DNA of 29,577 bases, from assembly GCA_028707105.1 (NCBI GenBank), contig JAQTUY010000003.1:1-29577 (forward strand), in the 5' to 3' direction. Each line of letters opens with the position of its first letter. The stretch's first letter is position 1. A model generated the notes under the pieces. It was given only the letters and a program-made list of their open reading frames with translations, did not search any database and was not told the origin of the DNA. Position numbers and translations under genes: made by a program. Of this stretch, positions 4,588 to 29,447 are shown in pieces. The DNA comes from Candidatus Omnitrophota bacterium. Its GTDB lineage: Bacteria; Omnitrophota; Koll11; Gygaellales; JAQTUY01.

Positions 4588-4595
4588 ATATTTAT

Positions 4596-5906: not shown

Positions 5907-5919
5907 TTACGCGGGCTCC

Positions 5920-6684: not shown

Positions 6685-7562
6685 TATCCTTCCGTAATTG
6701 ACGCATTAGCCCAGTTAGACGGCACTATTATTTGTTCGTCATCGATCTTTAGTTTCGATAAGTCCTGCTTTACCCGGCCATAAGCGCTAAGAAAGCGGTC
6801 TGCCTCCAGGATTTGGCGTAAATGAGAAATATTATCAATACCCACGACTACTTTATCTATCAATTCATTAGTTAACGCGAAGTTTAAACACAAGGAGAAT
6901 ACCGGCGCGTCATATTCTTCGGCAAAACGGCGAAGCTGCGCTATCTGTTTTTTCGCGGGAATGAAACGCGGATCCAGTTTATCCGGATCTTTAAAAAATA
7001 ATCCTTGCAGGAATACGGAGCGGATATGGATATCCACGCCTTTTTCCCTTAATTCCCGGAAATAGCCGGAAAATCTTTGATCAAGCACGTTAAAGGGGAG
7101 CTGCACTATATCAAAGTGTATATCCCGCTTGAATATATACTCAAGCTCTTGAGGCGTATATAGAGAAAATCCGATCTTGCCGGCCTTCCCTTGAGCTTTT
7201 ACCTTTTCCAGCTCTTCCCAGATACGGCTGTCCTGTTGAAAAGCCTTGAAATCATGGATAAGGCAGGCGTAGAGCCGTTGTATCCGCAGGGCCGATAATC
7301 CCTTATCTATGATATTCCGGACGGACGCCGGCTCGCAAACAGGGAGTTTGGTGATCACATTGACATTTGCCCGCGTGATCATAAATTCGCCGAGGACCTG
7401 CTGGCTCTCTCCGTAGGCGTAAGCAGTATCGTACGTATCGATACCCGCCTCGTACGCTTCCGAGAGGATCGTTAAAGCTTCATCTTTGGGGATACGGCCC
7501 CTCGGGTTATTAATGCCGTAATCCATTCCGAATTGCGCCGTTCCCAGGACCAATTTTTTCAT
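6684..7562 (-). CDS. Aldo/keto reductase
   Basis: A 292-residue NAD(P)H-dependent aldo/keto reductase with a TIM-barrel fold. The four catalytic residues of the family are visible: Asp45 in DTYDTAYAYG, Tyr50 in the same motif, Lys72 in VITKLP and His103 in CLIHDF. The opening LGTAQFGMDYGINN is characteristic of the subgroup found beside SpsF-type cytidylyltransferases and class III aminotransferases in polysaccharide clusters. It presumably reduces or reversibly oxidises a carbonyl on the sugar before or after amination. The gene begins 71 bases after pseB, the second-longest gap in the window, with no good ribosome binding site before its ATG. Its stop overlaps the next start (TAATG). The substrate is unknown; the pseudaminate pathway as described does not need such an enzyme. 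Confidence 0.85.
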   Translation of the reverse strand: MKKLVLGTAQFGMDYGINNPRGRIPKDEALTILSEAYEAGIDTYDTAYAYGESQQVLGEFMITRANVNVITKLPVCEPASVRNIIDKGLSALRIQRLYACLIHDFKAFQQDSRIWEELEKVKAQGKAGKIGFSLYTPQELEYIFKRDIHFDIVQLPFNVLDQRFSGYFRELREKGVDIHIRSVFLQGLFFKDPDKLDPRFIPAKKQIAQLRRFAEEYDAPVFSLCLNFALTNELIDKVVVGIDNISHLRQILEADRFLSAYGRVKQDLSKLKIDDEQIIVPSNWANASITEG

Positions 7563-8629: not shown

Positions 8630-8646
8630 ATCTCCCTTTCTGGTTA

Positions 8647-9207
8647 TTAATGTTGAACGCCTTCTTTCCTGATTACTTTCGGTATCGTTAAAAATAAAAT
8701 ATAAATGTCCAGGGTAAAAGAACGATGGAGAAAGTAGTGTTCATCAAAGTCTACCTTTTCCCTGATCGTCAGGTTATCCCGTCCATTTACCTGCGCCCAG
8801 CCGGTGATTCCCGGGAGCAGGGTATGGATATTCTTTTTAGTGCGCATCGCCACAAGGTCATCCTGATTGAACAATGCCGGGCGCGGCCCAATAAAGCTCA
8901 TATCCCCTTTTAATATATTGATAAGCTGCGGTATCTCATCAAGGCTGTATTTACGCAGGAACGCCCCGATCGGCGTCGAGTAAGCCTTGGGGTTATTCAT
9001 CAAGTGCGTGGCTACTTGCGGCGTGCTTAACTTCATGGTTCTGAATTTCGCCATTTTAAAGATCGTGTTATTTACTCCGACGCGGTCCGTCCAAAAAATA
9101 ACCGGTCCGGATGACGATAGTTTTATCGCGATAGCAATGATCAGCATGGGAATGATCAAGATGAGCAGCAGGATCAACGCCAGGACCAGGTCAAAAACTC
9201 TTTTCAT
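8647..9207 (-). CDS. Initiating sugar-phosphate (phosphoglycosyl) transferase, PglC/short WcaJ type
   Basis: A 186-residue monotopic phosphoglycosyl transferase that moves a sugar-1-phosphate from a UDP-sugar onto undecaprenyl phosphate, starting glycan assembly at the inner membrane. Residues 6-29 are a hydrophobic re-entrant helix. Then come SSSGPVIFWTDRVG (31-44), FKMAKFRTM (50-58), LRKYSLDEIPQLINILKGD (84-102) with the catalytic Asp90-Glu91 pair, MSFIGPRP (103-110) and PGITGWAQVNGR. It lacks the N-terminal membrane domain of full-length WbaP/WcaJ, so it is the compact class. Its start lies 17 bases inside the WbpV-type reductase gene, which suggests that the reductase product (a 6-deoxy-HexNAc such as QuiNAc) is the first sugar of the repeat. 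This link is inference from gene order. Confidence 0.92.
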   Translation of the reverse strand: MKRVFDLVLALILLLILIIPMLIIAIAIKLSSSGPVIFWTDRVGVNNTIFKMAKFRTMKLSTPQVATHLMNNPKAYSTPIGAFLRKYSLDEIPQLINILKGDMSFIGPRPALFNQDDLVAMRTKKNIHTLLPGITGWAQVNGRDNLTIREKVDFDEHYFLHRSFTLDIYILFLTIPKVIRKEGVQH

Positions 9208-10165
9208 ACTTCTTATCCTTATAAAAACCGACGGTCTTCGCTATTCCTTCTTCAACTGAGAAGCGAGGTTTCCATCTCGTAAGGGTTGAAAATTTCTCAG
9301 TCCGTAAGCAAAATGAATCAGTCAATCGGCTGATCGCATCCGCCTTTGCGGTCAGCCGGCCGATAACACGCAGTATGGATACGGGACAGGCGAGCAAACA
9401 GGCTTGTTTTTTAAACGCTCCGGCAATAGTAGAGATCAGCTCGGGAGTAGATATATCAGCGCCGTCACCGGCTAAAAACAGCTGTTTTGCGGCCGCAGGG
9501 TGGCTCAGACATAGCTCCATTATATCACAAAGATTGCCGGTGTAAATAAAACTACGCTTGTTGTGTATCGATTTAAAAGGCAACGGGATACCTCTTTCTA
9601 CAAGCCGGATCAACTGCAAAAAATTAGCTTTGACCCCGGGGCCGTAGACTAGCGGCAAGCGCAAGATAACCTCCTGCATCGCGCTGTTGCCGCAGACAGT
9701 GATGAGCTCTTTTTCCGCGTCGAGTTTGGAAAGGGCGTAATCGCCTTTGGGCCGCGGCCGGTCTTTTTCAGTAAAGACGCCGCTTTCGCCGTTTACCTTA
9801 GCTGAACTTACAAAAATAAACCGTTTTACTCCCGCTTGCGCTGCCTGGCAGGCTAACTGCCGGGTACCCAGGGTATTAACCCGATGATATGCCGAAGCCG
9901 GGTCACGCAGATGTTCATGCATTACATGCGCTCGGCCGGCAAGGTGGATCACACAGTCTACATCTTGAAGGACAGATGTCCAATCGGTGGACTCATTTAT
10001 ATCCCCCACTTTAGCGTAATCATCGACTCCCGGAATATCGCGCGCGTCGATGCGCACGGCTGCCCGGATACCCCAGTTTTTTTCTTTTAAAAACAAGCAT
10101 AAGTGGCGTCCGATGAAACCGTTAGCGCCTGTTACTAAAACACGCCTTTTGATTATCTGCGCCAT
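9191..10165 (-). CDS. WbpV-type NAD-dependent epimerase/4-keto-sugar reductase
   Basis: A 324-residue extended SDR. It shows VLVTGANGFIGRHL (9-22) for NAD(P) binding, IHLAGRAHVM near 73-82, FVSSAKVNGE at 118-127 and the catalytic pair Tyr143/Lys147 in DYALSKLDAEKEL. LRLPLVYGPGVKANF and NKRSFIYTGNLCDIM follow, with a C-terminal GDGADISTPEL segment. HVM, the SS-x-KVNGE form, VYGPGVK and the STPEL segment are characteristic of the WbpV/WreQ-like reductases that make UDP-D-QuiNAc from UDP-4-keto-6-deoxy-GlcNAc. The partner dehydratase (WbpM-like) is not in the window. The ATG forms a TAATG overlap with the epimerase stop, so translation is coupled, and the 3' end overlaps the initiating transferase. 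UDP-Glc 4-epimerase activity is a less likely alternative. Confidence 0.8.
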   Translation of the reverse strand: MAQIIKRRVLVTGANGFIGRHLCLFLKEKNWGIRAAVRIDARDIPGVDDYAKVGDINESTDWTSVLQDVDCVIHLAGRAHVMHEHLRDPASAYHRVNTLGTRQLACQAAQAGVKRFIFVSSAKVNGESGVFTEKDRPRPKGDYALSKLDAEKELITVCGNSAMQEVILRLPLVYGPGVKANFLQLIRLVERGIPLPFKSIHNKRSFIYTGNLCDIMELCLSHPAAAKQLFLAGDGADISTPELISTIAGAFKKQACLLACPVSILRVIGRLTAKADAISRLTDSFCLRTEKFSTLTRWKPRFSVEEGIAKTVGFYKDKKYEKSF

Positions 10166-11286
10166 TATTTATACCAAACCGTGCGGTTGATATAATCCGT
10201 ATAACTCATAATGATCCTAACGACTTTCTTGGAAACATTATTCACGTCATAATCCGGGATGATCTTGAATTGACGCCTGGCTGGGGAGTATTGGGCGGAT
10301 ACCGTTTTGACCGCTTCAATTATATCCCGGGATTTGAGGCCGCACATGATCAGGGTCCCTTCATCCATTCCTTCCGGACGCTCGTGCGCCTGTCGGATGG
10401 TCACCGCGGGAAAATTAAGTATGGATGATTCTTCGGTTATCGTTCCGCTGTCGGAAATGACGCAGGCGGCATTCATCTGCAGTTTTATATAGTCAAAAAA
10501 TCCCAGGGGTTTTAAAAATGAGACCCGGTGATCAAAATTCCGGCGTTTTAAGCTTTCCAGTTTTTTTCTGGTCCTGGGATGGGTTGAGACGATTATCTTC
10601 TTTTTAAGATCGCGCGCTATCTTGTTTAGCGAGTCAAGCAGGTCGGTAAAGTTACGCTCACAATCTATATTTTCCTCGCGGTGCGCGCTTAATACAAAGT
10701 ATTCGTCTTTTTTTATTTTCAACCGCTCTAAAACGGCGGATCTAAGGATGGAAGGCATATAGAAATCAAGGATCTCTTTCATCGGAGAACCGACTTTTAT
10801 GATGGTCTGCGGCTTTATCCCCTCGGCTATTAAATACCGGCGGGCATGTTCCGTCTGGGTCATGTTTATATCGCTTAAATGATCGACGATCTTGCGGTTC
10901 AGTTCTTCCGGCACGCGTTGGTCAAAGCAGCGGTTACCGGCTTCCATATGAAAAACCGGGATCTTCCTTCTTTTTGCGGGAATAATCGAGAGGCAGCTGT
11001 TGGTATCTCCGTAAATAAGGATGGCATCGGGAGATTCTTTTTCCATCACCTTATCGGACTTGGCGATTATATTCCCGATGCTTTCCGCGGGGTTTTTTCC
11101 TGCCGCGTTAAGGAAGTGATCCGGCTTTCTGATGCCCATATCCTTGAAAAACACCTCATTAAGTTCGTAATCATAATTTTGCCCCGTATGCACTAGGATG
11201 TTCTTTAGGCTTTTTTCAAGTTCAGCGATCACCCGGCTCAGTTTGATTATTTCGGGCCGTGTCCCTACTATCGTCATGATCTTCAT
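10165..11286 (-). CDS. fnlC: UDP-HexNAc 2-epimerase (non-hydrolysing), FnlC/WbjD type
   Basis: A 373-residue GT-B-fold 2-epimerase. Motifs include IVGTRPEIIKLSRV (6-19), LVHTGQNYDYELNEVFF (31-47), YGDTNSC (92-98), HMEAGNRCFDQRVPEELNR (113-131) and DHLSDINMT. SAHREENID (about 203), VSTHPRTRKKLE, SDSGTITEESSILNFPAV and RQAHERPEGMDEG follow. The RCFDQRVPEE segment, YDYELNEVFFKD and AHERPEGMDEG match the FnlC/WbjD subgroup, which epimerises C2 of 6-deoxy sugars such as UDP-L-PneNAc to UDP-L-FucNAc or UDP-L-RhaNAc to UDP-L-QuiNAc; generic WecB differs at these sites. It follows the RmlD-like reductase after four bases, in the order expected for the pathway. Which of the two sugars is made cannot be decided from sequence alone. 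Confidence 0.87.
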   Translation of the reverse strand: MKIMTIVGTRPEIIKLSRVIAELEKSLKNILVHTGQNYDYELNEVFFKDMGIRKPDHFLNAAGKNPAESIGNIIAKSDKVMEKESPDAILIYGDTNSCLSIIPAKRRKIPVFHMEAGNRCFDQRVPEELNRKIVDHLSDINMTQTEHARRYLIAEGIKPQTIIKVGSPMKEILDFYMPSILRSAVLERLKIKKDEYFVLSAHREENIDCERNFTDLLDSLNKIARDLKKKIIVSTHPRTRKKLESLKRRNFDHRVSFLKPLGFFDYIKLQMNAACVISDSGTITEESSILNFPAVTIRQAHERPEGMDEGTLIMCGLKSRDIIEAVKTVSAQYSPARRQFKIIPDYDVNNVSKKVVRIIMSYTDYINRTVWYK

Positions 11287-11290
11287 ACTC

Positions 11291-12157
11291 TTATTTTCTT
11301 CCTTTCAGCGTATTTGCCAGTTCCGCGGCCATTGCTTCCCATAACGGCGGATGATAGGCCGTTTCCCTGCGAAACCTTGAGGAATCCAGGCTGCGGTCGA
11401 TCTTGACCTCGTCATAGGGGATTATCTTGATTTTAAGCCCCAGTTTTGCGTTGATCAGCGATAATAATTTGTATTTACTGATCGGCTCGCTTGAAATGTG
11501 GTAGAGCCCTTTAAGGTCCGCGTGATTAAAGATGATCTCTTTGAGTATCGTGCATAATACCGTAGTAGTAAAGCCGGAGAATATGACTTTGGTATAGCCC
11601 TTTACGGTTTTGCCTTTCTGGCTTAGGAACCATTCTAATAATCCGTGCCTGGTATTCAGTTCCCTCCCGATCATCGAAGTCCTGATGGTCAGGGCATTGG
11701 CGTCGGTTACCTCTCCCAGTAGTTTTGTCCGGCTATACAGGTCTACCGGGTCAGGATTGTCATTTTCGGTATAGCGGCCTTTTTTGCCGGAAAAAACGCA
11801 ATCAGTGCTTAAATGGATCAGCCGGCAATCATTCCTGCGGCATAATACGGCTAGTTTGTGGGGGAAAAGCGAATTTACCTCTATGCTTTTTGTGGGGTCG
11901 GAGGCTTCTTTTGTCTGTTTAACGATTCCGATACAGTTGAGGATGACATCGGGCTTGACCGTATTTATTGATTTTTCAAAAGCCGGAAAATCTTCCGCGC
12001 GGGCGCCGCAAATAGTCTTCTTCCTGTCGAATAGCTTAAACCTCGCGTTTTCGGCGAAAGCGCCCCGAAGCGTGACATAGGTGTCAAAATCGTTCCTGAA
12101 TGACTGCCAGGCGGCATGGCCGAGCATCCCGCTTCCACCTAAAATTAAAATACGCAT
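11291..12157 (-). CDS. RmlD-like nucleotide-sugar 4-reductase (FnlB/WbvR role)
   Basis: A 288-residue SDR of the dTDP-4-dehydrorhamnose-reductase (RmlD) family. It has ILILGGSGMLG (3-13), a VKPDVILNCIGIVKQ element (68-81), HLSTDCVFSGKKGRYTE (115-131) and the catalytic pair Tyr141/Lys145 in DLYSRTKLLGE. Beside a FnlC-type epimerase, such proteins reduce the 4-keto group of UDP-2-acetamido-2,6-dideoxy-hexos-4-ulose to UDP-L-PneNAc or UDP-L-RhaNAc. Its length is that of the short WbvR-like class rather than the longer WbjC/FnlB class of about 370 residues. The ATG forms a TAATG overlap with the preceding glycosyltransferase stop. True dTDP-rhamnose synthesis is unlikely because RmlA, RmlB and RmlC are absent from the window. 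Confidence 0.82.
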   Translation of the reverse strand: MRILILGGSGMLGHAAWQSFRNDFDTYVTLRGAFAENARFKLFDRKKTICGARAEDFPAFEKSINTVKPDVILNCIGIVKQTKEASDPTKSIEVNSLFPHKLAVLCRRNDCRLIHLSTDCVFSGKKGRYTENDNPDPVDLYSRTKLLGEVTDANALTIRTSMIGRELNTRHGLLEWFLSQKGKTVKGYTKVIFSGFTTTVLCTILKEIIFNHADLKGLYHISSEPISKYKLLSLINAKLGLKIKIIPYDEVKIDRSLDSSRFRRETAYHPPLWEAMAAELANTLKGRK

Positions 12158-19794: not shown

Positions 19795-21573
19795 TTACCT
19801 CATAAAATCTTCAGAAGGATCCTCTGGCGGTATTTTGAAATAGTTATCCAGGAAATCGCGCGCGTTTTCGTATTCATTTTCTGTCCTGCTTTCGCTTTCC
19901 TTTGTTATTTTATCCAGGACTCGCGGGAGCTCATCAGCGCTTGATACCGAGTATTTCCATCTATCCAGGCCCTGAAGCGGATCTCCTAAAAGAGGCGAAT
20001 TGATATTCATATAGACCACGGGCACGCGGTTTAGAAGCGCCTCAATACCCAGCTGCGAATGCCTGTAAAGGACGCATTTGCAGGATGAGAGGTCGCGCTC
20101 AAGGCTGTTATTTGATATAGCTACATTACCGGGCCCGGTGTTTACGCATTGTTTTAAGGCCCGGTCTTTAGAAATATTAGGATGGAATCTGACTATGAAC
20201 GATTCATCGCCGGCGTTTTGCGCGGCGGTAAATATCCAATCAAGGACAGCTGCCGTATTGGCGATGCTGATCCCGTCAAGCACGACAAGCACATTTTTTT
20301 CCTTACGATCATTTTTACCGATAGCGCGCGGGATCCTTTTGATCATATAACCGCTTTTCACGGAGGCTTCTTTATATTCCCGTCCTATTCTCAGAAAAAG
20401 TTCTTTTGAATACGGCCCTACGCATATATATTCATCCGGGCCGGGTTTAAGCAGGCTTTCTTTGCGGGTCAGTCTTATTTTAAGGTGATATTCATACATC
20501 ACAGTGTGGACATAGCCGATAATACGCGCCACGCCCGCCTCGCGGGCGGCCTGGATGCAGGCTCTCTCGTTTACATTGCCTTCAAATTTGGTAATAACCT
20601 TATCGTATTTTTTGTCCTTTAATATTTTTTTCACGCCGGTGTAGAAAAGTTCGGCGGTCATATTAAATGAGTTAAAAGAACCGGACTCCCATAAAAGCAG
20701 GCCGGAAAGGTCGCAACTTCCGAAAAAACACCCTGAAAATCCTATTTTTCTGGAGCACATCCTCCAGAAGGCCTTCATGATACCGGTATACCCCAGGAGT
20801 AAAAATAAGGGCAGCACTTGCGCGTCCCTGCATAAAGACGCTCTTTTGACGGCTTCCCTGCCGTAGTTATCGAGCATATCGCAAAGATAAGTCACTTCGT
20901 AGCCTTTTCGCCCGATATGCAGGTGCAGGTCGTTGAAAAAGGGGTCCCTGTATCCGTCTTTCCCGATCGATGAGAAGTACATCATTGATGTTATAAGGAC
21001 TTTCGGCCGGCCCCCGGGCGTAACCGTCTTTGGCAGGGATATCCCCAGAGTCGATGTTTTCTTCCACAGGCAATACGCCAGCATGCGCAGTAAGCATATG
21101 ATCCTGCCTGCTCTGTCCTTTAGCTTAAGTAAAAGCCCATTTTCAAAATAAGAAGCCGGATCTACCTTCCATTTATTTGTATTAGCCCAGGCCAGGACCG
21201 CCTTTTTCATTTCCAGGCTGTTTACCAGTATTATGACTTTGTCCCGGATATTCATCCGCGCGAGCGTAAAAAGGACCAGGCATAGGTATCCCACGGAATT
21301 ATCTAATGGCTGCATTTTTGAAGAGAGCGCGGTCCGCCAGAAAACATGCTCCGTGTTTTTTCCGCGCGTGACTTCATCCCAAAAAATATCGAAATCCCTG
21401 AAGAAATCTTCCGACTGTTGTTGAAGAAGAAGAGGCAGTGTTATTTTTTTGATATTGCCCCTTCTTATTCCGGATATATCCCTATGGGTAAGGTCCCGGA
21501 AGGCGAAAAAACAGCCGTTTTCAGCCCTTTTTGCCAAACCATCAGAAAAACTTTGACTTACGATTATTTCCAT
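19795..21573 (-). CDS. Putative surface-carbohydrate glycosyltransferase (GT-B-like, large)
   Basis: A 592-residue protein without membrane spans or a signal peptide. The C-terminal half looks GT-B-like: KVLITSMMYF opens a Rossmann-type region at 191, VITKFEGNVNERACIQAAREAG lies at 326-347 and IIGYVHTVMYEYH at 351-363. FIVRFHPN (459-466) is followed by YRHSQLGIEALLNRVPVVYMN at 503-523. The HPN element and the S-QLG-EAL-RVPV element resemble the nucleotide-binding halves of capsule/Kdo-type transferases, and the layout recalls the surface carbohydrate biosynthesis family described from Leptospira O-antigen loci (TIGR04326), an assignment from memory. Residues 1-185 have no match I recognise. 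Lying at the end of the unusual-sugar cluster (18 bases after the cyclase gene), it may transfer that sugar. The ATG lacks a clear ribosome binding site. Confidence 0.6.
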   Translation of the reverse strand: MEIIVSQSFSDGLAKRAENGCFFAFRDLTHRDISGIRRGNIKKITLPLLLQQQSEDFFRDFDIFWDEVTRGKNTEHVFWRTALSSKMQPLDNSVGYLCLVLFTLARMNIRDKVIILVNSLEMKKAVLAWANTNKWKVDPASYFENGLLLKLKDRAGRIICLLRMLAYCLWKKTSTLGISLPKTVTPGGRPKVLITSMMYFSSIGKDGYRDPFFNDLHLHIGRKGYEVTYLCDMLDNYGREAVKRASLCRDAQVLPLFLLLGYTGIMKAFWRMCSRKIGFSGCFFGSCDLSGLLLWESGSFNSFNMTAELFYTGVKKILKDKKYDKVITKFEGNVNERACIQAAREAGVARIIGYVHTVMYEYHLKIRLTRKESLLKPGPDEYICVGPYSKELFLRIGREYKEASVKSGYMIKRIPRAIGKNDRKEKNVLVVLDGISIANTAAVLDWIFTAAQNAGDESFIVRFHPNISKDRALKQCVNTGPGNVAISNNSLERDLSSCKCVLYRHSQLGIEALLNRVPVVYMNINSPLLGDPLQGLDRWKYSVSSADELPRVLDKITKESESRTENEYENARDFLDNYFKIPPEDPSEDFMR

Positions 21574-21591: not shown

Positions 21592-22647
21592 TTATTTAAG
21601 ACGGTTAAAATACTCATTTATGGCGGACCGCAGCCGGCTATCCATGGGTACCTGTCTTTTTTCCATTCTTCCCGGCCCGCGCGTCAGGATGCAGGTCAGG
21701 TTCGCGTTCACATTTTTTTTATCTTTTGATAACGCTTTAATATACTCTGCCATGGAGAAGGGTTTCCATGTTTTAGAGGGTAAATTTTTAGATAGGGCCT
21801 GGTGCATATCCTTGAATTGTTTCGGGGATATCAGCTTCATTTTAAAGGAAAGATAATTTGCCATATCCATGCCTGCCGTGATCGCCTGGCCATGGGAAAC
21901 TTGATATCCGGTTACGCTTTCAAGCGCGTGGCCGAAAGTATGTCCGTAGTTAAAAAGATTGCGTTTTCCCTGGTCAAATTCATCCTTCTCAATGACCCCC
22001 TTCTTGATCCTCAGGCTTTCATGTATATGAGGGATCAATTTCTTCCGGTCGGAGAAAAAATCGCAATATTCTTGATTAAGCCGGTCAATATACGGGCTGC
22101 CGGCAATGAGATAATAATGAAGGATCTCCCCTATCCCGGATTTAATGTCTTTTTCGGAAAGCGTTTTTAGAAAGTTAACATCAATGAAGATGCGGGATGG
22201 CGGGTAAAAATTGCCGATAAGGTTCTTGAAGTTCCTGAAATTAATGGATGTCTTGCTGCCGATACAACTGTCGGCTTGAGCCAGCAGGGTAGTCGGGAAG
22301 AAAAACCACCTGATCCCCCTGAACAGTATCGAAGATACAAAAGCGCCTACATCCTGCAGTATGCCGCCTCCAAGGATGACCAGGATAGACCGTTTATTCG
22401 CTTTATTGGCGAGCAGCTTGTCAATTACCTTTTCGCAAGATGCTATTGTTTTGTTGGGTTCAACCGCCTCAAGAAGGATCAAGCGTTTTTCAAAGGGAAG
22501 CTTTTTTAAAAAGCCGCTATAAAGCCGGTAGATACTTTGGTCGACCAGGAAATACGCGTTGGGGTTGGAAAGAAGCTCCTGAAGCGGCGCGGAATAGTCG
22601 TTTACGAATTCCGCGGTATAAGCCCTTGACCTGGATTGGATATTCAT
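21592..22647 (-). CDS. 3-dehydroquinate-synthase-like sugar phosphate cyclase
   Basis: A 351-residue member of the AroB superfamily, whose enzymes cyclise C7 (or C6) sugar phosphates using NAD and a metal ion. Visible: LGGGILQDVGAFVSSILFRG (92-111), FFPTTLLAQADSCIGSKTSIN (116-136) and FKNLIGNFYPP (140-150). SGIGEILHYY (170-179) holds metal-ligand Glu174, and GKRNLFNYGHTFGHALE (227-243) with VSHGQAITAGM (250-260) holds His236 and His252. The residue three after the ligand glutamate, lysine in AroB (GxAEVIK), is His177 here. A housekeeping shikimate role is unlikely: the gene sits among sugar enzymes and is flanked by an SDR and a putative glycosyltransferase. I choose the ATG at 22647, four bases after the SDR stop, because family members begin near NIQSR; GTG or TTG codons upstream are possible. 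Product unknown. Confidence 0.8.
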   Translation of the reverse strand: MNIQSRSRAYTAEFVNDYSAPLQELLSNPNAYFLVDQSIYRLYSGFLKKLPFEKRLILLEAVEPNKTIASCEKVIDKLLANKANKRSILVILGGGILQDVGAFVSSILFRGIRWFFFPTTLLAQADSCIGSKTSINFRNFKNLIGNFYPPSRIFIDVNFLKTLSEKDIKSGIGEILHYYLIAGSPYIDRLNQEYCDFFSDRKKLIPHIHESLRIKKGVIEKDEFDQGKRNLFNYGHTFGHALESVTGYQVSHGQAITAGMDMANYLSFKMKLISPKQFKDMHQALSKNLPSKTWKPFSMAEYIKALSKDKKNVNANLTCILTRGPGRMEKRQVPMDSRLRSAINEYFNRLK

Positions 22648-22651
22648 TGAT

Positions 22652-23398
22652 TTACGCACAGGTATATCCGCCGTCAACTACGATATTTTGGCCGGTTAAA
22701 TAAGTATTTTGATCGCTGGCCAGAAAAAGGACTATCTTGGAGATCTCCCCGGGGCTGCCGAAGCGCCGCAAAGGGACCTGTTTTACCAGGTTTTCCCGTT
22801 CTTTTTTCCCCAGGATCTTTTCCGTAAGATCGGTTATTATGAATCCGGGAGATACCGCGTTTACCAGGATGCCGTACGGAGCAAGCTCGATCGCCGCGGT
22901 CCGGGTCACCGCTGTCAGGGCGCTTTTTGTCATTGAATATACCGAACGTTTTTCCCGGGTAACAACGCTGAATATCGAAGAGATATTAATGATCCGTCCA
23001 TAGCCGCGTTTCTTCATCCCCGGAATGACCGTCTGCAGGATGCGGTATGGGGCGCCTAAATTAACATCTACGATCTCCCGCCAGTCCCCTTCTTTAACGT
23101 CCTCTAAAAGATCGATACGGTTAATGCCGGCGTTATTGACGCAAATATCGATAGACAGCGGCCGGATCATGCCTAAAAATCGTTTCAGGGATCCCTTATT
23201 TGAGAAATCCGCGAGCAGGTATCTTATCGCGCGCTTCTCTCTGGCTGCCTGAGAGTTCAGTTTTTTGATCTCAGACGGCGAGGTCCCGGTCAAAAATAAA
23301 TTTGCCCCTTCCGCTTCAAGATCCATGGCGATCTGCCGGCCGATGCCGCGGGTCGCTCCCGTAATAAGGACGGTCTTATTTTTAAATCCGATCTCCAT
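22652..23398 (-). CDS. Classical SDR oxidoreductase (FabG-like)
   Basis: A 248-residue classical short-chain dehydrogenase. It has TVLITGATRGIGRQIA (9-24) for NAD(P) binding, ICVNNAGINR (85-94), GRIINISSI (134-142) with the catalytic serine, and the YxxxK pair Tyr154/Lys158 in SVYSMTKSALTAVTR. GILVNAVSPGFIITDLTEK follows, and it ends with the usual YLTGQNIVVDGGY. The start is the ATG at 23398, two bases after the dehydrogenase stop and with AGGGG five bases upstream; in-frame codons further upstream extend into the neighbouring gene. It is FabG-like in sequence, but no acyl carrier protein or other fatty acid gene is nearby. Next to a sugar phosphate cyclase it more probably oxidises or reduces a hydroxyl of the cyclic or sugar intermediate. 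Substrate unknown. Confidence 0.87.
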   Translation of the reverse strand: MEIGFKNKTVLITGATRGIGRQIAMDLEAEGANLFLTGTSPSEIKKLNSQAAREKRAIRYLLADFSNKGSLKRFLGMIRPLSIDICVNNAGINRIDLLEDVKEGDWREIVDVNLGAPYRILQTVIPGMKKRGYGRIINISSIFSVVTREKRSVYSMTKSALTAVTRTAAIELAPYGILVNAVSPGFIITDLTEKILGKKERENLVKQVPLRRFGSPGEISKIVLFLASDQNTYLTGQNIVVDGGYTCA

Positions 23399-23400
23399 TT

Positions 23401-24309
23401 TTACCCCTTTTTTAATGCTGCTAGCAAGTTCTTTGCGGCCTGCATCTCCATCTGGCTCCGGCATTCACCGGTATATGAGCCGATATGCGGCGTCAGTAAA
23501 ACCAGGTCATTTTTTAATAATGAGCCTGTATAAGGTTCTGTTTCAAAAGTATCCAGCCACGCGCCGGAAACCTGGCCCCGTTCCAGGGCTCCTTGCAGCG
23601 CCGGTTCGTCTATCAATCCTCCTCTTGCCGCGTTAAGGATCAAGGTGCCTTTTTTTATCAAAGATAATTCTTCCCGGCCAAGGACGCATTTATCTCCGCT
23701 GCAATGAAGGCTTACGATATCCGCTAAGGGGAGCGCGTCCTTTAAAGCCATTCGCGTGATTCCAGCAGGTATATCGTCGACCAATGGGTCGACGATTATT
23801 TGTTTGACCGCAAAGGGCGACAATAAGGCGGATAACCGGCGCCCGATCCTGCCAAAACCGATGATTACGATGGTTTTCCCGGTTAATTCCCTGCCTGTAT
23901 GTTTCTTCCAGGTACCCTGGTGCATCAGCTGGTCAAGCTGGCTTATCCGGCGCAACAGGCTGAGCAAACAGCCTAAGGTCAATTCAGCGACCGCGTTCAC
24001 CGGCGCCTCGGGGGTCGAGCAGACCTTGATTTTACGTCTCTTCGCGGCCTCCAGGTCCACATTTGACATCCCGGATCCGCAGCGGGAGATGACCTTCAGG
24101 TCACAAACAGATAAAACTTCATCATCCAGTGTTTCTAAGCCCGCGATCAGCCCGGTATATCCCGGTAAAAGTTTTTTCGACTCTTCTTTGGTTAACTTAC
24201 GTTTGTAGGGGTTTAAAATAACTTTATACCCGGCTTGTTCAAGCAGGCGGACCGGCGAGGGATCGGATTCGGCAAAAGTAGATGTAGTAACAAGGATCTT
24301 ATCGCTCAT
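23401..24309 (-). CDS. D-isomer-specific 2-hydroxyacid dehydrogenase (phosphoglycerate dehydrogenase-like)
   Basis: A 302-residue dehydrogenase that interconverts 2-hydroxy and 2-keto acids. The NAD-binding motif IVIIGFGRIGRRL (147-159) sits between two halves of the substrate domain. The catalytic set is present: Arg229 in NAARGG, Glu256 in TFETEP and His275 in TPHIGS. SRCGSGMSNVDLEAA (75-89) resembles the serA-type phosphoglycerate dehydrogenase loop, but the C-terminal ACT regulatory domain is missing, so serine biosynthesis is less likely. I take the ATG at 24309 with AAGGTG six bases upstream; an in-frame GTG three codons earlier is weaker. The start overlaps the SIS gene by 11 bases. 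In this cluster it may act on a sugar acid or the keto acid that the aminotransferase uses. Confidence 0.85.
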   Translation of the reverse strand: MSDKILVTTSTFAESDPSPVRLLEQAGYKVILNPYKRKLTKEESKKLLPGYTGLIAGLETLDDEVLSVCDLKVISRCGSGMSNVDLEAAKRRKIKVCSTPEAPVNAVAELTLGCLLSLLRRISQLDQLMHQGTWKKHTGRELTGKTIVIIGFGRIGRRLSALLSPFAVKQIIVDPLVDDIPAGITRMALKDALPLADIVSLHCSGDKCVLGREELSLIKKGTLILNAARGGLIDEPALQGALERGQVSGAWLDTFETEPYTGSLLKNDLVLLTPHIGSYTGECRSQMEMQAAKNLLAALKKG

Positions 24310-24886
24310 CCGTTTCACCTTTTAGGGCGGCAATGAAATATGAGGTGATCATATGGTCCAGAACCAGGTGCAAGTCTTCGACCGGGCCATATTCCCCTAT
24401 TTCGCTCTTGATATGGATGAGATGGTCGCAGAGCCCGGCTAATTTCCCTCCGGTAAAGCCCACCAGGCCGACAGTCGTTCCGCCCTTTTCTTTAGCCAAT
24501 TTTACGGCATTAACGACATTCGGGCTGTTCCCGCTGGCGGAAATAACTACCAAAACATCCCCCGGATTAAAATTATACTGGATTTGCATTGAAAAGATAT
24601 TCTCGTATCCATAATCATTGCCGATAGCCGTAAGCGCCGCGACATTATCATTGATGCTTTGGGTGCGAAAGCCCATGCCCGTTATCTTCCTTCCTACTTC
24701 GTCAAGGTCCTGGGCAAAATGGGACGCTGTCGCCGCGCTCCCTCCATTCCCGGCAAAATATATCGTTTTATTGTTGCGGCGGGCCTCCAGGAAGCAATTA
24801 ATAACGTCGTGAACTCTGACAGCGTCTATATTATTCAATAAAGTCGTCAGATACCCGCGGTACTTATTGACAAATTCTTCCACCAT
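24299..24886 (-). CDS. SIS-domain phosphosugar isomerase, GmhA-like
   Basis: A 195-residue SIS protein resembling sedoheptulose-7-phosphate isomerase GmhA. Seen are IYFAGNGGSAATASHFAQDL (42-61), LTAIGNDYGYENIFSMQI (85-102), GDVLVVISASGNSPNVVNAVKLAKEKGG (about 109-136) and the C-terminal EDLHLVLDHMI helix, the counterpart of the GmhA metal/catalytic region. There is no CBS domain, so it is not KdsD/GutQ. I choose the ATG at 24886 because AGGGAGAG precedes it and this leaves the upstream gene intact; a start 17 codons earlier would overlap that gene by 34 bases. GmhA makes D-glycero-D-manno-heptose 7-phosphate, and a C7 sugar phosphate would also suit a downstream cyclase. HldE and GmhB are absent from the window. 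Confidence 0.85.
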   Translation of the reverse strand: MVEEFVNKYRGYLTTLLNNIDAVRVHDVINCFLEARRNNKTIYFAGNGGSAATASHFAQDLDEVGRKITGMGFRTQSINDNVAALTAIGNDYGYENIFSMQIQYNFNPGDVLVVISASGNSPNVVNAVKLAKEKGGTTVGLVGFTGGKLAGLCDHLIHIKSEIGEYGPVEDLHLVLDHMITSYFIAALKGETDER

Positions 24887-24890
24887 TTTT

Positions 24891-24898
24891 CTCTCCCT
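24891..24898 (-). promoter_or_regulatory. Shine-Dalgarno AGGGAGAG fixing the SIS gene start
   Basis: The minus strand reads AGGGAGAG four bases before the ATG at 24886-24884, in the short gap after the oxidoreductase stop. It supports this ATG over in-frame codons inside the preceding gene. Confidence 0.7.
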
Positions 24899-24903
24899 AT
24901 GAT

Positions 24904-25935
24904 TTAGGTTTCTTTGATCTTGTATTTTTCTTTCCACCGCGGGTCGGCGCAGTAGATCTTATATACCAGTTTCATCGTCATCAACGCGTCATGGCTTGTT
25001 CCGGTCTTGACCGGCCGGTTATTTACAACGGCATCGGCAAATTCATCGACTTCGTCTTTCCAGGAAGTGTCGTCCAGGTAATTAATGATCTGCTCTTCCT
25101 GGGATCCGGCATTGCCCCCGGACCTGTGGATGATGTAAAGGCGCTCCTGCCCGTAGCTTTTTGACCCGGAGAGGATGCCTTGTAGGCTTAACGCCCCTTT
25201 TGTCAGGGCGATATCCAGCATGAACCGGTGCTGCCACTGGGTGGCGGTCGAGTGAAGGATGGCTACCCGGTGTTTTTTGTCGCGCATGATCGCGTACGCG
25301 TTATCTTCGACGTCATGGCCCCAGAATCCGTTTGAAATGAAGCTCTTGACTTCTACAAACTCCCCGCAAAAGAAGCGCATCAGGTCTACCATATGTATAC
25401 CCTGGTCTAAAAGGATGCCGCCTCCGGCAAATCTCCTGCAAGACCTCCATCCGCCTGAGAAAGGTATTATTTTGCTTTTTCCGTAAACCCCCCGCATATT
25501 GACTATTTGCCCCAGAATTTTTGACTGGATTATCCGGTGTGCTTCCTTGACCGAGTCATGGTACCGGTGGTTAAAACCGTATTTTAACTTTAAATCCGGG
25601 TATCTTTTTTCAACTTCAATGACATTTTTTATATCCGATACTGTCCTGCCGGGCGGTTTCTCGCAAAAAACATGCAAGCCCTTTTTTAAGCCCGCGATAG
25701 TTACTTCGGAGGCCAGGTAATTCGGCAACGATACGAATAATATGTCTAAGGGGACCTTAAGCAGCTCGCTGTAGTGCTTGAAGTATTCTATCCCGCCGGG
25801 CATAACGCCCCTGCCCTTCATTTTTTTATCGCAAACAGCCGCCGTTTTAAGCCTGGGATGCTGATCGATAAAACGATGCCTTATTTTTCCTACCACACCG
25901 TAACCGGCGATGCCTACACGTAATTTTTTCGCCAT
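24904..25935 (-). CDS. Gfo/Idh/MocA-family oxidoreductase (second copy)
   Basis: A 343-residue NAD(P)-dependent oxidoreductase. The Rossmann motif is RVGIAGYGVVGKIRH (6-20) and the catalytic-type EKP is in HVFCEKPPGR (88-97). FNHRYHD follows, then GGGILLDQGIHMVDLMRFFCGE with the conserved GxxxDxGxHxxDxxxF pattern of the substrate domain. It differs from the adjacent copy in having an AGGGILLDQGIH form and a shorter C-terminus. Members oxidise or reduce hydroxyls of sugars, sugar nucleotides or inositols, often at C3 or C4. AAGGAG lies nine bases before the ATG. A 16-base palindrome (25951-25966) covers the end of the preceding gene just upstream. Substrate not identifiable. Confidence 0.87.
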   Translation of the reverse strand: MAKKLRVGIAGYGVVGKIRHRFIDQHPRLKTAAVCDKKMKGRGVMPGGIEYFKHYSELLKVPLDILFVSLPNYLASEVTIAGLKKGLHVFCEKPPGRTVSDIKNVIEVEKRYPDLKLKYGFNHRYHDSVKEAHRIIQSKILGQIVNMRGVYGKSKIIPFSGGWRSCRRFAGGGILLDQGIHMVDLMRFFCGEFVEVKSFISNGFWGHDVEDNAYAIMRDKKHRVAILHSTATQWQHRFMLDIALTKGALSLQGILSGSKSYGQERLYIIHRSGGNAGSQEEQIINYLDDTSWKDEVDEFADAVVNNRPVKTGTSHDALMTMKLVYKIYCADPRWKEKYKIKET

Positions 25936-25956
25936 TCCTTGGTTCTCCTTTTTGAT

Positions 25957-27033
25957 CTAGATCAAATACTGGGTCAGCAGCTTATCGTTGCGCTCTCCCA
26001 GCCGGTCCGACTCAGCCTGTTCATCCAGCCGGACCCAGCGGCGCTCTTCATTGCTGCGGTAAAGCGCGTGCAAAAGCCTGATGGTATTGAGCCCGTCGTC
26101 AAATTCAACCGGATCCGGTTGCCCCTCAAGAATAGACTTAACCAGCATTTCATAGACCTTGTGATGACTTACTCCGTAGGCCATCGGGACTTCTTCGCTG
26201 TAAACAGCCTGTTCGGAAGGATCAGGTGAAAAAGCCTCGAGTTTATTGGTGCAGATCCCGCCAAGCACAGCCAGGCCCTTACTTCCTACAATAGAGACTG
26301 AAGCCTCAAAATCATCGGGCCTTGCGGCCATAGTGATCTCGATCTGCCCAAGCCCGCCGTTCTTAAATTTTACAATGCTCACGCCCGTATCTTCCGCTTC
26401 CAGCTTGGCGCCTAATTGCGCGAATGTAGAATTTACTTCTTCGAGCTCTCCGGCCAGGTAGCGCAGGATATCGATATAATGGATGCCTTGATTGACATGC
26501 GCCCCTCCATCCATCGAGAAAGTCCCCCGCCATGGCGCCAGGTTATAATAACGCTGCGGCCGGCACCAGCGTACCCGTACCGTTCCCAGCACCACATCGC
26601 CTAATTCACCGCTGGTCAGGGCTGACTTGACCCTCTGGACAGCCTTATTAAAGCGGTTTTGATAAACCGGAAATATCCTCACCCCTTTTTCTTGAGCTAA
26701 AGTCTTTAATTCCAGCCCGTGGGCTATGCGCAAGACCATTGGTTTTTCTAAAAGGATATGCACCGGCCTCTGGTTAAGGATGTCTTTGACGTGCTCGTAA
26801 TGAGCGCCGGTAGGCGTGGCCAGGGTTACGATATCAATGTCTTCTTTTTTGAGCATCTCGCGATAATTAGTGTACGCGCGTGAGCCTGCCTTTTCCGCAT
26901 GGCTTTTCGCTTTTTCCTCAATTAAATCGCAGGAAGCCACTAATTTGATCCCCTCGACCCCTTTAAGCATCTCCGCGTGATGAAAGGCCACGCGGCCGCA
27001 GCCTACAATAGCCAGGTTTAGACTCTTCTTCAC
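25957..27033 (-). CDS. Gfo/Idh/MocA-family oxidoreductase (first copy, WlbA-like site)
   Basis: A 358-residue oxidoreductase. NAD(P)-binding LAIVGCGRVAFHHA is at 7-20, the EKP motif is in ILLEKPMVL (93-101), and MDGGAHVNQGIHYIDILRYLAGE spans 174-196. The NQGIH-xxD-L form is also seen in WlbA/WbpB, which oxidise C3 of UDP-GlcNAcA, but the other genes of that pathway (WbpA, WbpD, WbpE, WbpI) are not here. The start is GTG at 27033, with GGAGG four bases upstream; no in-frame ATG with a ribosome binding site is nearby. It lies 10 bases after the cytidylyltransferase gene. The two adjacent Gfo/Idh genes may act in sequence or in opposite directions on the same intermediate. Substrate unknown. Confidence 0.87.
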   Translation of the reverse strand: MKKSLNLAIVGCGRVAFHHAEMLKGVEGIKLVASCDLIEEKAKSHAEKAGSRAYTNYREMLKKEDIDIVTLATPTGAHYEHVKDILNQRPVHILLEKPMVLRIAHGLELKTLAQEKGVRIFPVYQNRFNKAVQRVKSALTSGELGDVVLGTVRVRWCRPQRYYNLAPWRGTFSMDGGAHVNQGIHYIDILRYLAGELEEVNSTFAQLGAKLEAEDTGVSIVKFKNGGLGQIEITMAARPDDFEASVSIVGSKGLAVLGGICTNKLEAFSPDPSEQAVYSEEVPMAYGVSHHKVYEMLVKSILEGQPDPVEFDDGLNTIRLLHALYRSNEERRWVRLDEQAESDRLGERNDKLLTQYLI

Positions 27034-27043
27034 AACTCCTCCA

Positions 27044-27790
27044 TTATTTGATTTTTCGTTTCTTCAGGTATTCTTCAACAGTAGGAACGTCTTCGGGTAC
27101 ATCCACCCCGTAAGCTGTCACCAGGGCCTTGACCAGCCTGACGTTAAATCCGTCATTGATCAGCCGGAGCATATGAGTATCCTCGATGTATTCCAGTTCA
27201 CATTTTGGCGTCTCTGAGAAACGGCGGATAGCGTCGGCTTTCCATAAATAAAGCCCCACTTGTTTATAGTATTTTACATCCCTGTTCTTAAAATTGTACG
27301 GTACGACGCTGCGGGAAAAGAAAAGCGCCCGATCACCCGGCCCTTTGACGATCTTTACATTATGAGGATACTTGGCCTCTTCCAACGGTATTTCGGCATA
27401 CTGGGTCACGACGTCAAAGTCTTGATGGGCAAAAGCCGCCTCCAGGAAGGCGTCGATATCGGACGCCAATAACGCGGGTTCGTCCCCCTGGATCTCAGAG
27501 ACATAATCCGCGCCCATTCTTATGGATACTTCATTGGATCGCTCCGAGCAATTCTTATGTTCCGCGGATGTCATCAGGTAGCGCATACCCTTCGCTTTGC
27601 AGAATTTCTCGATATCTTCATGGTCGGTGGCCACGTAGATCTCTTTTAATATTTTTGATCCGGCGCAAGCTTCATAAACCCACTGGAGCATTTCTTTATC
27701 GAGGATCTTGACCAGCGGCTTACCGTAGAAACGGCTTGAAGCCATACGCGCGGGGATTACCGCGATGATTTTTTTATTATTATCGATCAT
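27044..27790 (-). CDS. KdsB-like CMP-sugar synthetase
   Basis: A 248-residue cytidylyltransferase of the 3-deoxy-manno-octulosonate (Kdo) CMP-transferase family. It has IIAVIPARMASSRFYGKPL (8-26), IYVATDHEDIEKF (51-63), EIQGDEPALL (99-108) with a metal-binding aspartate at 103, HNVKIVKGPGDRALFFSRSVVPY and GLYLWKADAI. In place of the usual KdsB segment SGT-[DE]R-xAE it reads NCSERSNEV at 80-88, and where KdsB typically has EQLR-xLE-G it has EDTHMLRLINDG. These sit in substrate-contact regions, so the acceptor may be a different sugar acid. There is no kdsA, kdsC or kdsD in the window. The gene follows the aminotransferase after 13 bases. The family is secure; Kdo as substrate is doubtful, so I give no symbol. 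Confidence 0.82.
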   Translation of the reverse strand: MIDNNKKIIAVIPARMASSRFYGKPLVKILDKEMLQWVYEACAGSKILKEIYVATDHEDIEKFCKAKGMRYLMTSAEHKNCSERSNEVSIRMGADYVSEIQGDEPALLASDIDAFLEAAFAHQDFDVVTQYAEIPLEEAKYPHNVKIVKGPGDRALFFSRSVVPYNFKNRDVKYYKQVGLYLWKADAIRRFSETPKCELEYIEDTHMLRLINDGFNVRLVKALVTAYGVDVPEDVPTVEEYLKKRKIK

Positions 27791-27803
27791 TTTTTATCCT
27801 GTT

Positions 27804-28865
27804 TTAGATCAATTCCTTGATTGTTTTAAATAACATTTCCATTTGCGCGGCATCGCCCACCGTGATCCGGATCAGGCCTTGCACGGGGATCTCTTTAAAC
27901 GGCCCCTTGATCCAGATATCCCTGTCTTCCAAGTCCTTAATAAGTTTAGCTGCATCTATTTCCGTTGGGAGGCGCACAAACACAAAATTTGTCACTGACG
28001 GAAGCATCTGGGCTCCGATCTTCGCGCATTCGCGTTCGATAATAACCTTACCCTTTTTAACATCGCGCACGCACTTTTGCATGATTTGGAGATGATCAAG
28101 CAGGTATTCCACAAATTTTGCGGTTACGGAAGTAATGTCATATGTTAATTTTACCTTAGTCAGGTTTTGGATGTTTTGAGGCTGGCTGACCAGATATCCC
28201 GCGCGCAAGGGCGCGATACCAAAAGCCTTGGAGAATGTGCGCGCGATGACCAGGTTATCATAGCGGTTTATCAAGGGAACTAGAGTGCCGGGGTAATAGT
28301 GATGGTATGCTTCATCGACTAGGACTAAACTGTTATGTCCTTTGGCCCGGTTGATAACCGCCTCAATATCTTTGTCAGGTAAAGCTGTCCCTGTGTGATT
28401 CGGATTAGCGATGATCACCAGCCTTGTCTTAGGCCCGATCTTATCAAGGATACGCTCAACCGGCAGCGAAAAGTCCGGATTGTATTCAACAGGTACTTTT
28501 TTGCCGCCGAACATATCCGTGTAGACCGGAAACATCCCGTAAGCAGGCTGTAAAAAAATGACCTCCTGCCCGTCATCTACATAGGCGTCAAAGACCATGC
28601 GGATCCCGGTATCGGACCCGTATGTCAGCAATAAATGATCCCGCCCCATTCCGACGAAATCCGCCAGTTTCTTATAAGTCGATTCCAGCGCCGGATAGGC
28701 CACGACCTCTTCAGGTTTGATAGTCTTCCAGACCGCGTCCAGCACTGCCTGCGGCAAAGGCGTAGTGCGCTCGTTATGATCCAGGCGCATGACCTTTCCG
28801 ATGCGCCCTTCTGTATTGGAAGGCGCGCGGGTGATCTTCTTTAATCTCTCTTTGACTTCGATCAT
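27804..28865 (-). CDS. HisC-like class I/II PLP aminotransferase
   Basis: A 353-residue fold-type I aminotransferase resembling histidinol-phosphate aminotransferase. It starts with MRLDHNERTTPLP (26-38), then LTYGSDTGIRM (80-90), FLQPAYGMFP (104-113), IIANPNHTGTALP (151-163) with the cofactor asparagine near 156, and LVLVDEAYHHYYP (180-192) with Asp184. The Schiff-base lysine 213 is in ARTFSKAFGIAPLRAGYL. No other his gene is present, so a role in histidine synthesis is unlikely. Similar enzymes in other loci aminate keto acids or phosphorylated sugars, and here it heads a set of sugar-acid enzymes. AAAAGGA precedes the ATG. Position between a GNAT and a CMP-transferase suggests it installs an amino group that is later acylated, but this is inference. 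Confidence 0.85.
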   Translation of the reverse strand: MIEVKERLKKITRAPSNTEGRIGKVMRLDHNERTTPLPQAVLDAVWKTIKPEEVVAYPALESTYKKLADFVGMGRDHLLLTYGSDTGIRMVFDAYVDDGQEVIFLQPAYGMFPVYTDMFGGKKVPVEYNPDFSLPVERILDKIGPKTRLVIIANPNHTGTALPDKDIEAVINRAKGHNSLVLVDEAYHHYYPGTLVPLINRYDNLVIARTFSKAFGIAPLRAGYLVSQPQNIQNLTKVKLTYDITSVTAKFVEYLLDHLQIMQKCVRDVKKGKVIIERECAKIGAQMLPSVTNFVFVRLPTEIDAAKLIKDLEDRDIWIKGPFKEIPVQGLIRITVGDAAQMEMLFKTIKELI

Positions 28866-28889
28866 AACAGTCCTTTTCTAGCGGTCCAA

Positions 28890-29447
28890 TTATTTGTTAA
28901 AGAATAGTTTAAAATCATCCTTTAATGCCGATAATGCTATGGCGGTGCGGTAGGCGCCGTTCTTGAACAGATAATCCCGCAGTTGGCCTTCTATCTTAAA
29001 GCCTGAGGCCTGGGCTGACTTTATTGAGGCGATATTATCCTTCAGAATAACTGCGGCGATCCTATGCAGATTCAGGGTATGGAATCCGTAGTATGCGGCC
29101 ATATTCCAGGCCAGTTTTCCGTAGCCCTTGCCCCAAACTTCCTTCCTGCCTATGACTATACCCAGGTCTGCCGAACGATGCACCCAGTCTATATTGTGCA
29201 GTCCGACGCAGCCGATATGCTTTTTTGATCTTTTTTCAATGATAGCGAGAACTATATCACTTTCGCTCTTTAAGATCTTTTTTATATAGTCTCTCTGTTT
29301 CTTTTGGGTATTCGGGAAGACCCCCTTATTTTGATATTTAGTTACTTGCGGATCATTAAACCAGGCATACCAGTCGCTTTTGGCATCTTTTGCGCCGGCA
29401 AGCCTCAAATAGATCCTCTCACCCTCAATAAAGACATCTTTCATCAT
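28890..29447 (-). CDS. GNAT acetyltransferase (RimJ/RimL-like)
   Basis: A 185-residue GNAT-fold protein. The opening IYLRLAGAKDAKSDWYAWFNDPQVTKY (12-38) and QRDYIKKIL match RimJ/PseH-type acetyltransferases. The core shows HIGCVGLHNIDW, SADLGIVIGRKEVWGKGYGKLAW with the acetyl-CoA loop and LNLHRIAAVILKDNIASIKSAQASGF with the N-xx-S-xK-xxx-GF closing motif. Two adjacent ATG codons (29447 and 29444) could start it; GGAGG lies six and nine bases upstream. Together with the trimeric acetyltransferase fragment just upstream it suggests N- or O-acylation of an amino sugar, possibly the one aminated by the HisC-like neighbour. The substrate is not visible. Confidence 0.85.
   Translation of the reverse strand: MMKDVFIEGERIYLRLAGAKDAKSDWYAWFNDPQVTKYQNKGVFPNTQKKQRDYIKKILKSESDIVLAIIEKRSKKHIGCVGLHNIDWVHRSADLGIVIGRKEVWGKGYGKLAWNMAAYYGFHTLNLHRIAAVILKDNIASIKSAQASGFKIEGQLRDYLFKNGAYRTAIALSALKDDFKLFFNK

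Follow-up and report, generated by a model that had tools for sequence, protein, structure and literature searches.

We describe a run of eight genes on the minus strand of a 29,577-nucleotide stretch of Candidatus Omnitrophota DNA (contig JAQTUY010000003.1; the whole stretch is hereafter called the window), which ends in a sugar phosphate cyclase of family TIGR04425 and is composed of two blocks. The core block comprises the cyclase, a short-chain dehydrogenase/reductase (SDR), a D-2-hydroxyacid dehydrogenase (HADH), a SIS-domain isomerase and a Gfo/Idh oxidoreductase (Gfo1), and the head block comprises a HisC-like aminotransferase, a KdsB-like cytidine monophosphate (CMP) transferase, a second Gfo/Idh oxidoreductase (Gfo2) and, likely as a ninth gene of the set, a GNAT N-acyltransferase. 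What is new here is the modularity, one core block being joined to either of two exchangeable heads. As far as sequence can tell, the two blocks would together furnish an unusual building block of a surface polysaccharide, with the core forming a carbocyclic acid and the head aminating, acylating and CMP-activating it, a reading to which we assign a probability of roughly 0.38.

Conservation of the core and exchange of the heads

A profile scan of a genome collection returned 35 loci, the titles of which span Omnitrophota, Syntrophaceae, Chloroflexi, Chlorobiaceae, Bacteroidetes, Aminicenantes, Brocadiaceae, Gemmatimonadaceae, Thaumarchaeota, Alpha- and Gammaproteobacteria, Campylobacterales, Denitrovibrio, Micromonospora and others. 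Metagenome-assembled genomes account for 31 of these titles, the exceptions being Pedobacter yonginense (L015), Brocadiaceae S225 (L016), Alteromonas arenosi (L030) and Micromonospora sp. HK10 (L034). Neighbourhoods were compared in 65 stretches, the window included, scored with 13 family profiles from a first clustering; the short stretches L036-L095 were left out, L119, which extends L098, gave no match, and 64 cyclase loci were reduced to 62 distinct ones by dropping L096 (the same as L005) and L097 (the same as L011).

The cyclase is accompanied by two or more of HADH, Gfo1 and SIS in 37 of the 62 distinct loci, the window among them, from about ten phyla as judged by titles and sample centres; in 60 of 64 rows, two duplicates included, the gene immediately preceding it is the SDR. 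In the other 25 loci fewer than two of the three were found, some of these loci being truncated and others having a different context. The first-pass annotation of the window had proposed the eight genes as one pathway and had named scattered or single occurrence as an argument against it. The core genes do recur, whereas the exact eight-gene set proves to be one of two exchangeable versions, and scattered or single occurrence applies in part, namely to the 25 loci just mentioned.

Among the 37 core loci, an HpcH/HpaI aldolase (family PF03328, identified from one annotated member) is present in 17 and HisC with Gfo2, the window's kind of head, in eight; 12 have neither and none has both, for which the hypergeometric probability is 0.0033 if the heads were independent. 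Some of the 12 headless loci are short, and head absence there is not firm. L023 and L025 have the aldolase as well but fall outside this count for want of core genes; in L025, which has no Gfo2, a HisC-like gene (289 bits, threshold 300) lies 8 kb off on the opposite strand. Core and CMP-transferase are found with neither head in L028, L030, L032 and L117. A second aldolase upstream of HisC in L001, L112 and L115 was considered and rejected, seven of ten upstream genes (at least 160 residues) having been scanned and found to be six methyltransferases and one gene with no Pfam match.

Inheritance of the two blocks

One tree per gene was built for the 22 loci in which the CMP-transferase is of KdsB type and the head is known (eight HisC, 14 HpaI), with 18 rows for SIS, which is missing from L013, L019, L026 and L112. 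On the CMP-transferase tree the head label needs a single change, a value as low being reached in none of 500 shuffles, and with references added it still needs one (one to two across bootstraps). On the core trees it needs eight changes for the cyclase, seven for Gfo1 and six each for SDR, HADH and SIS, which 186 to 500 of 500 shuffles match. Three genes were put to the approximately unbiased (AU) test, the cyclase (p = 5.8e-08), Gfo1 and HADH, and for each of them a single HisC-head clade is rejected. The branch dividing the heads on the CMP-transferase tree is weakly supported (67/41); the HisC-head enzymes form two groups, the window with L018 and the other six, supported at 100/100 each. 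Because its tree needs one change where those of the core genes need six to eight, the CMP-transferase travels with the head, the core being inherited on its own. L015 and L021, both Bacteroidota, have the same order KdsB-HADH-Gfo1-SIS-SDR-cyclase with different heads, and in the window GNAT, HisC, CMP-transferase and Gfo2 are contiguous, followed by the core genes.

The gene run in the window

All eight genes were found intact in a single tight run, just as the first-pass annotation had described them, and its family calls agree with the profile matches obtained here (Table 1). No internal stop occurs in any of ten frames examined (the eight genes, GNAT and the gene after the cyclase). From GNAT to the cyclase the gaps, with the starts chosen, are 24, 13, 10, 21, 17, -11, 2 and 4 bases, and since they range only from -11 to 24 bases the eight-gene run is likely one transcription unit. 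A stretch resembling a ribosome-binding site was seen by eye before eight of the ten starts, and none before the cyclase ATG or the next gene; the start of the cyclase is uncertain, ATG being used here and alternatives reaching a TTG at 22677. A similar GNAT gene precedes HisC in L015 and L019 as well.

Table 1 Genes of the two blocks and the gene that follows them in the window
Gene product	Block	Position	Strand	Basis
GNAT N-acyltransferase	head (likely)	28890..29447	-	PF13302 91.8 bits
HisC-like pyridoxal phosphate (PLP) aminotransferase	head	27804..28865	-	PF00155; TIGR01141 239.3 bits
KdsB-like CMP-transferase	head	27044..27790	-	PF02348; NF003952 224.8 bits
Gfo/Idh oxidoreductase 2 (Gfo2), WlbA-like	head	25957..27033	-	3q2k/3q2i nearest solved relatives
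Gfo/Idh oxidoreductase 1 (Gfo1)	core	24904..25935	-	PF01408/PF22725
SIS-domain GmhA-like aldose/ketose isomerase	core	24299..24886	-	PF13580/PF01380; ATG start chosen
D-2-hydroxyacid dehydrogenase (HADH)	core	23401..24309	-	PF02826/PF00389; ATG start chosen
SDR oxidoreductase	core	22652..23398	-	PF13561; ATG start chosen
TIGR04425 sugar phosphate cyclase	core	21592..22647	-	PF01761/PF24621; TIGR04425 435.5 bits
GT-B-fold protein, candidate glycosyltransferase for the product		19795..21573	-	weak TIGR04326 26.8 bits

The cyclase and its probable substrate

The window cyclase exceeds the curated cut-off of TIGR04425 (400 bits) and falls short of that of the AroB model TIGR01357 (267.9 bits against 305). 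Of the genomes of the 35 loci, all carriers of the cyclase, 14 were searched for a separate AroB above the cut-off, and 11 have one, the other three being possibly incomplete. An AroB in disguise is disfavoured on both counts. The structure model (predicted local distance difference test, pLDDT, 89.1) has dehydroquinate synthases as its closest folds.

Active-site positions were compared in an alignment of 61 cyclases (score at least 330, at least 300 residues, two rows from L026). The equivalents of R130, D146, K152, E194, K250, R264, N268, H271, E278, H287 and K356 of the fungal dehydroquinate synthase are kept in all 61 and those of N162 and H275 in 60; these thirteen positions are zinc ligands and substrate binders of that enzyme. 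The substrate of 2-deoxy-scyllo-inosose synthase has no carboxylate, and in its structure 2d2x the places of R264 and N268 (counted back from the GHTIGHA motif) are taken by G and E, whereas R and N stand there in all 61 cyclases. Because the dehydroquinate-synthase residues are nearly all retained, the carboxylate binders included, the cyclase substrate is probably a sugar-acid phosphate. Sedoheptulose 7-phosphate, one of the compounds that the first-pass annotation proposed to try on the cyclase and the KdsB-like enzyme, is by the same residues a poor candidate as direct substrate and may rather start the pathway.

A histidine at the K197 position was entertained as a mark of the cassette and lost weight, since lysine also occurs in core-bearing loci and both states are found with the core; the genome-scan pattern GIGE[IM][LM]H[YF] is itself biased to this histidine. 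Of 7998 candidates scored in the family search, 6884 match at E<=0.001, AroB-like ones probably included, and members are named in the sources as 3-dehydroquinate synthase or hypothetical lyase. The distribution of TIGR04425 is sparse, with 5/285, 10/395, 4/345, 5/398, 1/247 and 2/246 genomes above the cut-off in samples by phylum, rates that are biased by the centring of the samples on known carriers. Queried with the cyclase, plasmid sequences gave 9 records (limit 1e-40) and phage sequences 14 (limit 1e-20), 19 being listed at 29.0-34.7% identity. Two TIGR04425 cyclases lie in one locus in L026, and with L017 and L018 there are two cyclase sites in a single genome, that of L018.

The CMP-transferase and the other enzymes

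Three familiar names within the run are not to be read as functions, since the curated cut-offs of their models are all missed: HisC (TIGR01141, cut-off 276.55 bits), KdsB (TIGR00466, 132.3 bits against 155.2) and GmhA (TIGR00441, 110.5 bits against 209.45). The KdsB-like label of the first-pass annotation holds as far as PF02348 and the KdsB subfamily model NF003952 (cut-off 193) are matched, and fails as regards TIGR00466 and the motifs for 3-deoxy-D-manno-oct-2-ulosonate (Kdo): the window enzyme has HKNCSER and HMLR where the solved Kdo enzymes 1gq9 and 3k8d have HxSGT[DE]R and EQLR. Since these motifs are missing, Kdo is an unlikely substrate. The CMP-transferases joined to HpaI heads carry HxR[AC][ST][DE]R in 12 of 14 (not L016, L031) and SRE[PA]IPS likewise in 12 of 14 (not L026, L031); HTR[AC]L[DE]R and CDSNR occur in the five of five HisC-head enzymes shown, and HKNC[SA]ERSNEV and EDTHMLR in those of the window and L018. 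A frame break splits the L009 gene, which was kept outside the motif alignment and entered the trees as its larger piece only.

The best solved relatives of Gfo2 are 3q2k and 3q2i (219 and 217 bits, the next scoring 97), which we take to be WlbA enzymes acting on UDP-N-acetylglucosaminuronic acid (UDP-GlcNAcA); the WlbA-like name rests on this sequence kinship. Inositol dehydrogenase and glucose-fructose oxidoreductase are the nearest named structures of Gfo1. Catalytic residues of five of the enzymes are conserved among relatives: R, E and H of HADH in 37 of 37 relatives, S, Y and K of the SDR in 68 of 68, the EK and D..H motifs of Gfo1 in 36 of 36, and those of Gfo2 and HisC in eight of eight each, the PLP lysine of HisC included. 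The columns adjoining the HADH E and the SDR S are kept in 15 of 37 and 38 of 68.

Plasmid searches with Gfo2 and with an HpaI-type CMP-transferase returned 7 and 1 records, the latter carrying no annotation at the matching place. In one plasmid locus (L125, Azospirillum sp. TSA2s) a Gfo2-like gene is grouped with a class I/II aminotransferase, a sugar isomerase, an acylneuraminate-type CMP-transferase and an N-acetyl sugar amidotransferase.

Proposed pathway and its alternatives

We infer the substrates, the step order, the action of the head on the core product and the final structure as follows. In the core (21592-25935), the SIS isomerase would convert a ketose phosphate, in the simplest case sedoheptulose 7-phosphate, to the aldose phosphate, which Gfo1 would oxidise at C1 to the aldonate, in keeping with the glucose-fructose oxidoreductase among its nearest structures. 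HADH would then oxidise C2 to give a 2-ulosonate 7-phosphate, that is, 3-deoxy-D-arabino-heptulosonate 7-phosphate (DAHP) retaining its 3-hydroxyl; the cyclase would expel phosphate and close a hydroxylated ring resembling dehydroquinate, and the SDR would reduce the ketone to a polyhydroxy cyclohexane carboxylic acid. Each core enzyme would thus have a textbook reaction in the proposed order. In the head (25957-29447), Gfo2 would oxidise a ring hydroxyl, the HisC-like enzyme would aminate, GNAT would acylate and the CMP-transferase would activate the product for a glycosyltransferase, its destination being an O-antigen-like glycan. An N-acylated carbocycle, one reading of the first-pass annotation, is accordingly among the possible products, and the sugar-like building block may never yet have been isolated.

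Several observations weigh against this pathway, the gravest being one of chemistry: an acid whose ring is a closed carbocycle offers CMP no anomeric hydroxyl, and the core acid offers HpaI no aldehyde to extend, which leaves the replacement of the amination genes by an aldolase unexplained. The cyclases depart from AroB at the K197 position (H in 33 of 61, the window included; K in 28) and at the E that follows HG in AroB (Q in 30, I in 19 of 61), and the GmhA glutamate (E65) is D in 31 of 32 SIS rows. GNAT occurs in three of eight HisC-head loci, L018 ending just short of its place, and the blocks are not always separate, as L001, L009 and L112 have Gfo1 placed between the head genes Gfo2 and CMP-transferase. 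Furthermore, 13 loci (L098, L099, L102, L103, L105, L106, L109, L110, L111, L114, L120, L122 and L123) pair SDR and cyclase with a family of about 600 residues and have no SIS, Gfo1, HADH or CMP-transferase, so that the cyclase substrate need not come from SIS, Gfo1 and HADH. Because these loci carry the pair without the other core genes, SDR and cyclase are a still smaller portable unit. The L105 member of the 600-residue family, the only one annotated, is a thiamine diphosphate (TPP) enzyme resembling acetolactate synthase, and these loci perhaps encode a branched or cyclised sugar route. They often also hold a family whose L105 member weakly matches HpcH/HpaI.

The want of an anomeric hydroxyl would be met if the core ended in a true ulosonic acid, the cyclase eliminating phosphate and reducing, the ring opening, and the SDR reducing the methyl ketone to a 7-deoxy hept-2-ulosonate that takes CMP on its anomeric hydroxyl. 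The known CMP-sugar synthetases of PF02348 use an anomeric 2-keto acid, the SDR immediately precedes the cyclase in nearly all rows, and in L030 (Alteromonas arenosi) the core is accompanied by a PseF-like CMP-transferase and one additional SDR, with neither head. Against this, the cyclase retains the fold and nearly the full active-site set of dehydroquinate synthase, and no member of that type is known to halt before ring closure, so we hold this outcome to be rather doubtful.

The differing inheritance of head and core would also suit two separate products, the head making a CMP-sugar of its own and the core a polyhydroxy acid that decorates this or another residue, the two being neighbours through one glycan; the HpaI head agrees with a self-contained ulosonate route of the pyruvate type. 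Yet head and core genes, where found, are mostly contiguous, and headless cores with a CMP-transferase exist (the four loci given above), which makes two products improbable in our estimate.

For the two-block pathway itself, a specific end point can be named, although it is decidedly a long shot: a CMP-activated quinate-like carba-ulosonate, aminated and acylated in the window and brought into a surface glycan by CMP, its ring closed in shikimate fashion with sedoheptulose 7-phosphate replacing phosphoenolpyruvate (PEP) and erythrose 4-phosphate as the start. If so, the CMP-transferase would act on a tertiary ring alcohol beside a carboxylate, and interchangeable heads would dress one ring precursor.

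An amino-shikimate-like route, as to 3-amino-5-hydroxybenzoate, with Gfo2 and HisC aminating the sugar before an aminodehydroquinate synthase closes the ring, resembles the rifamycin-type set in its enzyme classes; it is very improbable, given that the cyclase tree ignores the head (eight changes, and the AU result above), closely related cyclases thus serving both head types, and that no DAHP-synthase family is among the Pfam matches of the 29 window genes scanned. The same scan speaks against three further candidates: the Kdo pathway (no DAHP/KDO8P-synthase family, besides the absent Kdo motifs), a nonulosonate (Neu/Leg/Pse) pathway (no NeuB-type condensing synthase) and the FrbH-like phosphonate pairing of CMP-transferase and HisC (no PEP mutase family).

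Locus setting

In its remaining part the window has the appearance of an O-antigen-type locus: it encodes glycosyltransferases and an initial sugar-phosphate transferase, carries UDP-sugar genes and shows a weak Wzy_C match. The GT-B-fold protein begins 18 bases after the cyclase and has 592 residues (model pLDDT 86.5, GT-B-type matches spanning residues 176-580). The folds that match it best belong to UDP-sugar 2-epimerases and to GT-B transferases generally, and do not single out CMP as its donor; E319, H452 and P453 (P0121 numbering) are invariant in 12 aligned rows, and only four further relatives were found at E<=1e-10. A family resembling it lies directly after the cyclase in L016, where its member matches TIGR04326 at 260.8 bits, and in L031, and nearby in L001, L012 and L019. 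A PF04199 family, named by its L012 member, is close after the cyclase in L012, L014, L019, L021, L022, L023, L035, L104, L107 and L108.

At 3499-7562 the window has a second CMP-sugar-like block, with a PseG-like GT28-domain protein, a class III aminotransferase, a CMP-transferase and an aldo/keto reductase, to which the absence of the NeuB family from the scan of 29 window genes also applies. The PF02719, RmlD-like and 2-epimerase genes at 7634-12157, beside the initial sugar transferase, presumably encode the UDP-N-acetyl-L-fucosamine (UDP-L-FucNAc) pathway. A radical S-adenosylmethionine (SAM)/SPASM protein (1524-2591) adjoins a methyltransferase and a GNAT gene within the polysaccharide locus.

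Significance and relation to known systems

No description of the cassette was found in the open-access literature searched, and neither "TIGR04425" nor "sugar phosphate phospholyase" occurs in any paper of it. One core with two exchangeable CMP heads gives a large cyclase family a testable biochemical role and suggests that carbocyclic or ring-modified acids have perhaps been overlooked in the surface glycans of bacteria of several phyla. It is also a modular pathway met with in nature, its activating enzyme moving along with the tailoring enzymes.

Among known systems, KdsB (CMP-Kdo synthetase) has PF02348 and a QGDEP motif in common with the window enzyme and differs at HKNCSER/HMLR. The C3 amination of UDP-GlcNAcA by WlbA, WlbC and WlbB likewise combines a Gfo/Idh enzyme with an aminotransferase and an acetyltransferase; the window aminotransferase is HisC-like and not of the DegT type of WlbC, and it is linked to a CMP-transferase. 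AroB resembles the window cyclase in fold and at nearly all active-site positions checked, and is unlike it in score and in the histidine at the K197 position. BtrC, the 2-deoxy-scyllo-inosose synthase of structure 2d2x and of the same superfamily, makes a carbocycle from a sugar phosphate, with G and E in place of the carboxylate-binding R and the N of the cassette cyclases. The ebo operon is described as a conserved multi-phylum operon around EboD, an uncharacterised sugar phosphate cyclase of a different branch, and is set apart from the cassette by the prenyltransferase and hydrolases of that description (PMC5133447). TIGR04425 itself (AroB-related putative sugar phosphate phospholyase, cyclizing), of which the window cyclase is a member, is typed by NCBIfam as a hypothetical equivalog; the two-block context is what this analysis adds to it.

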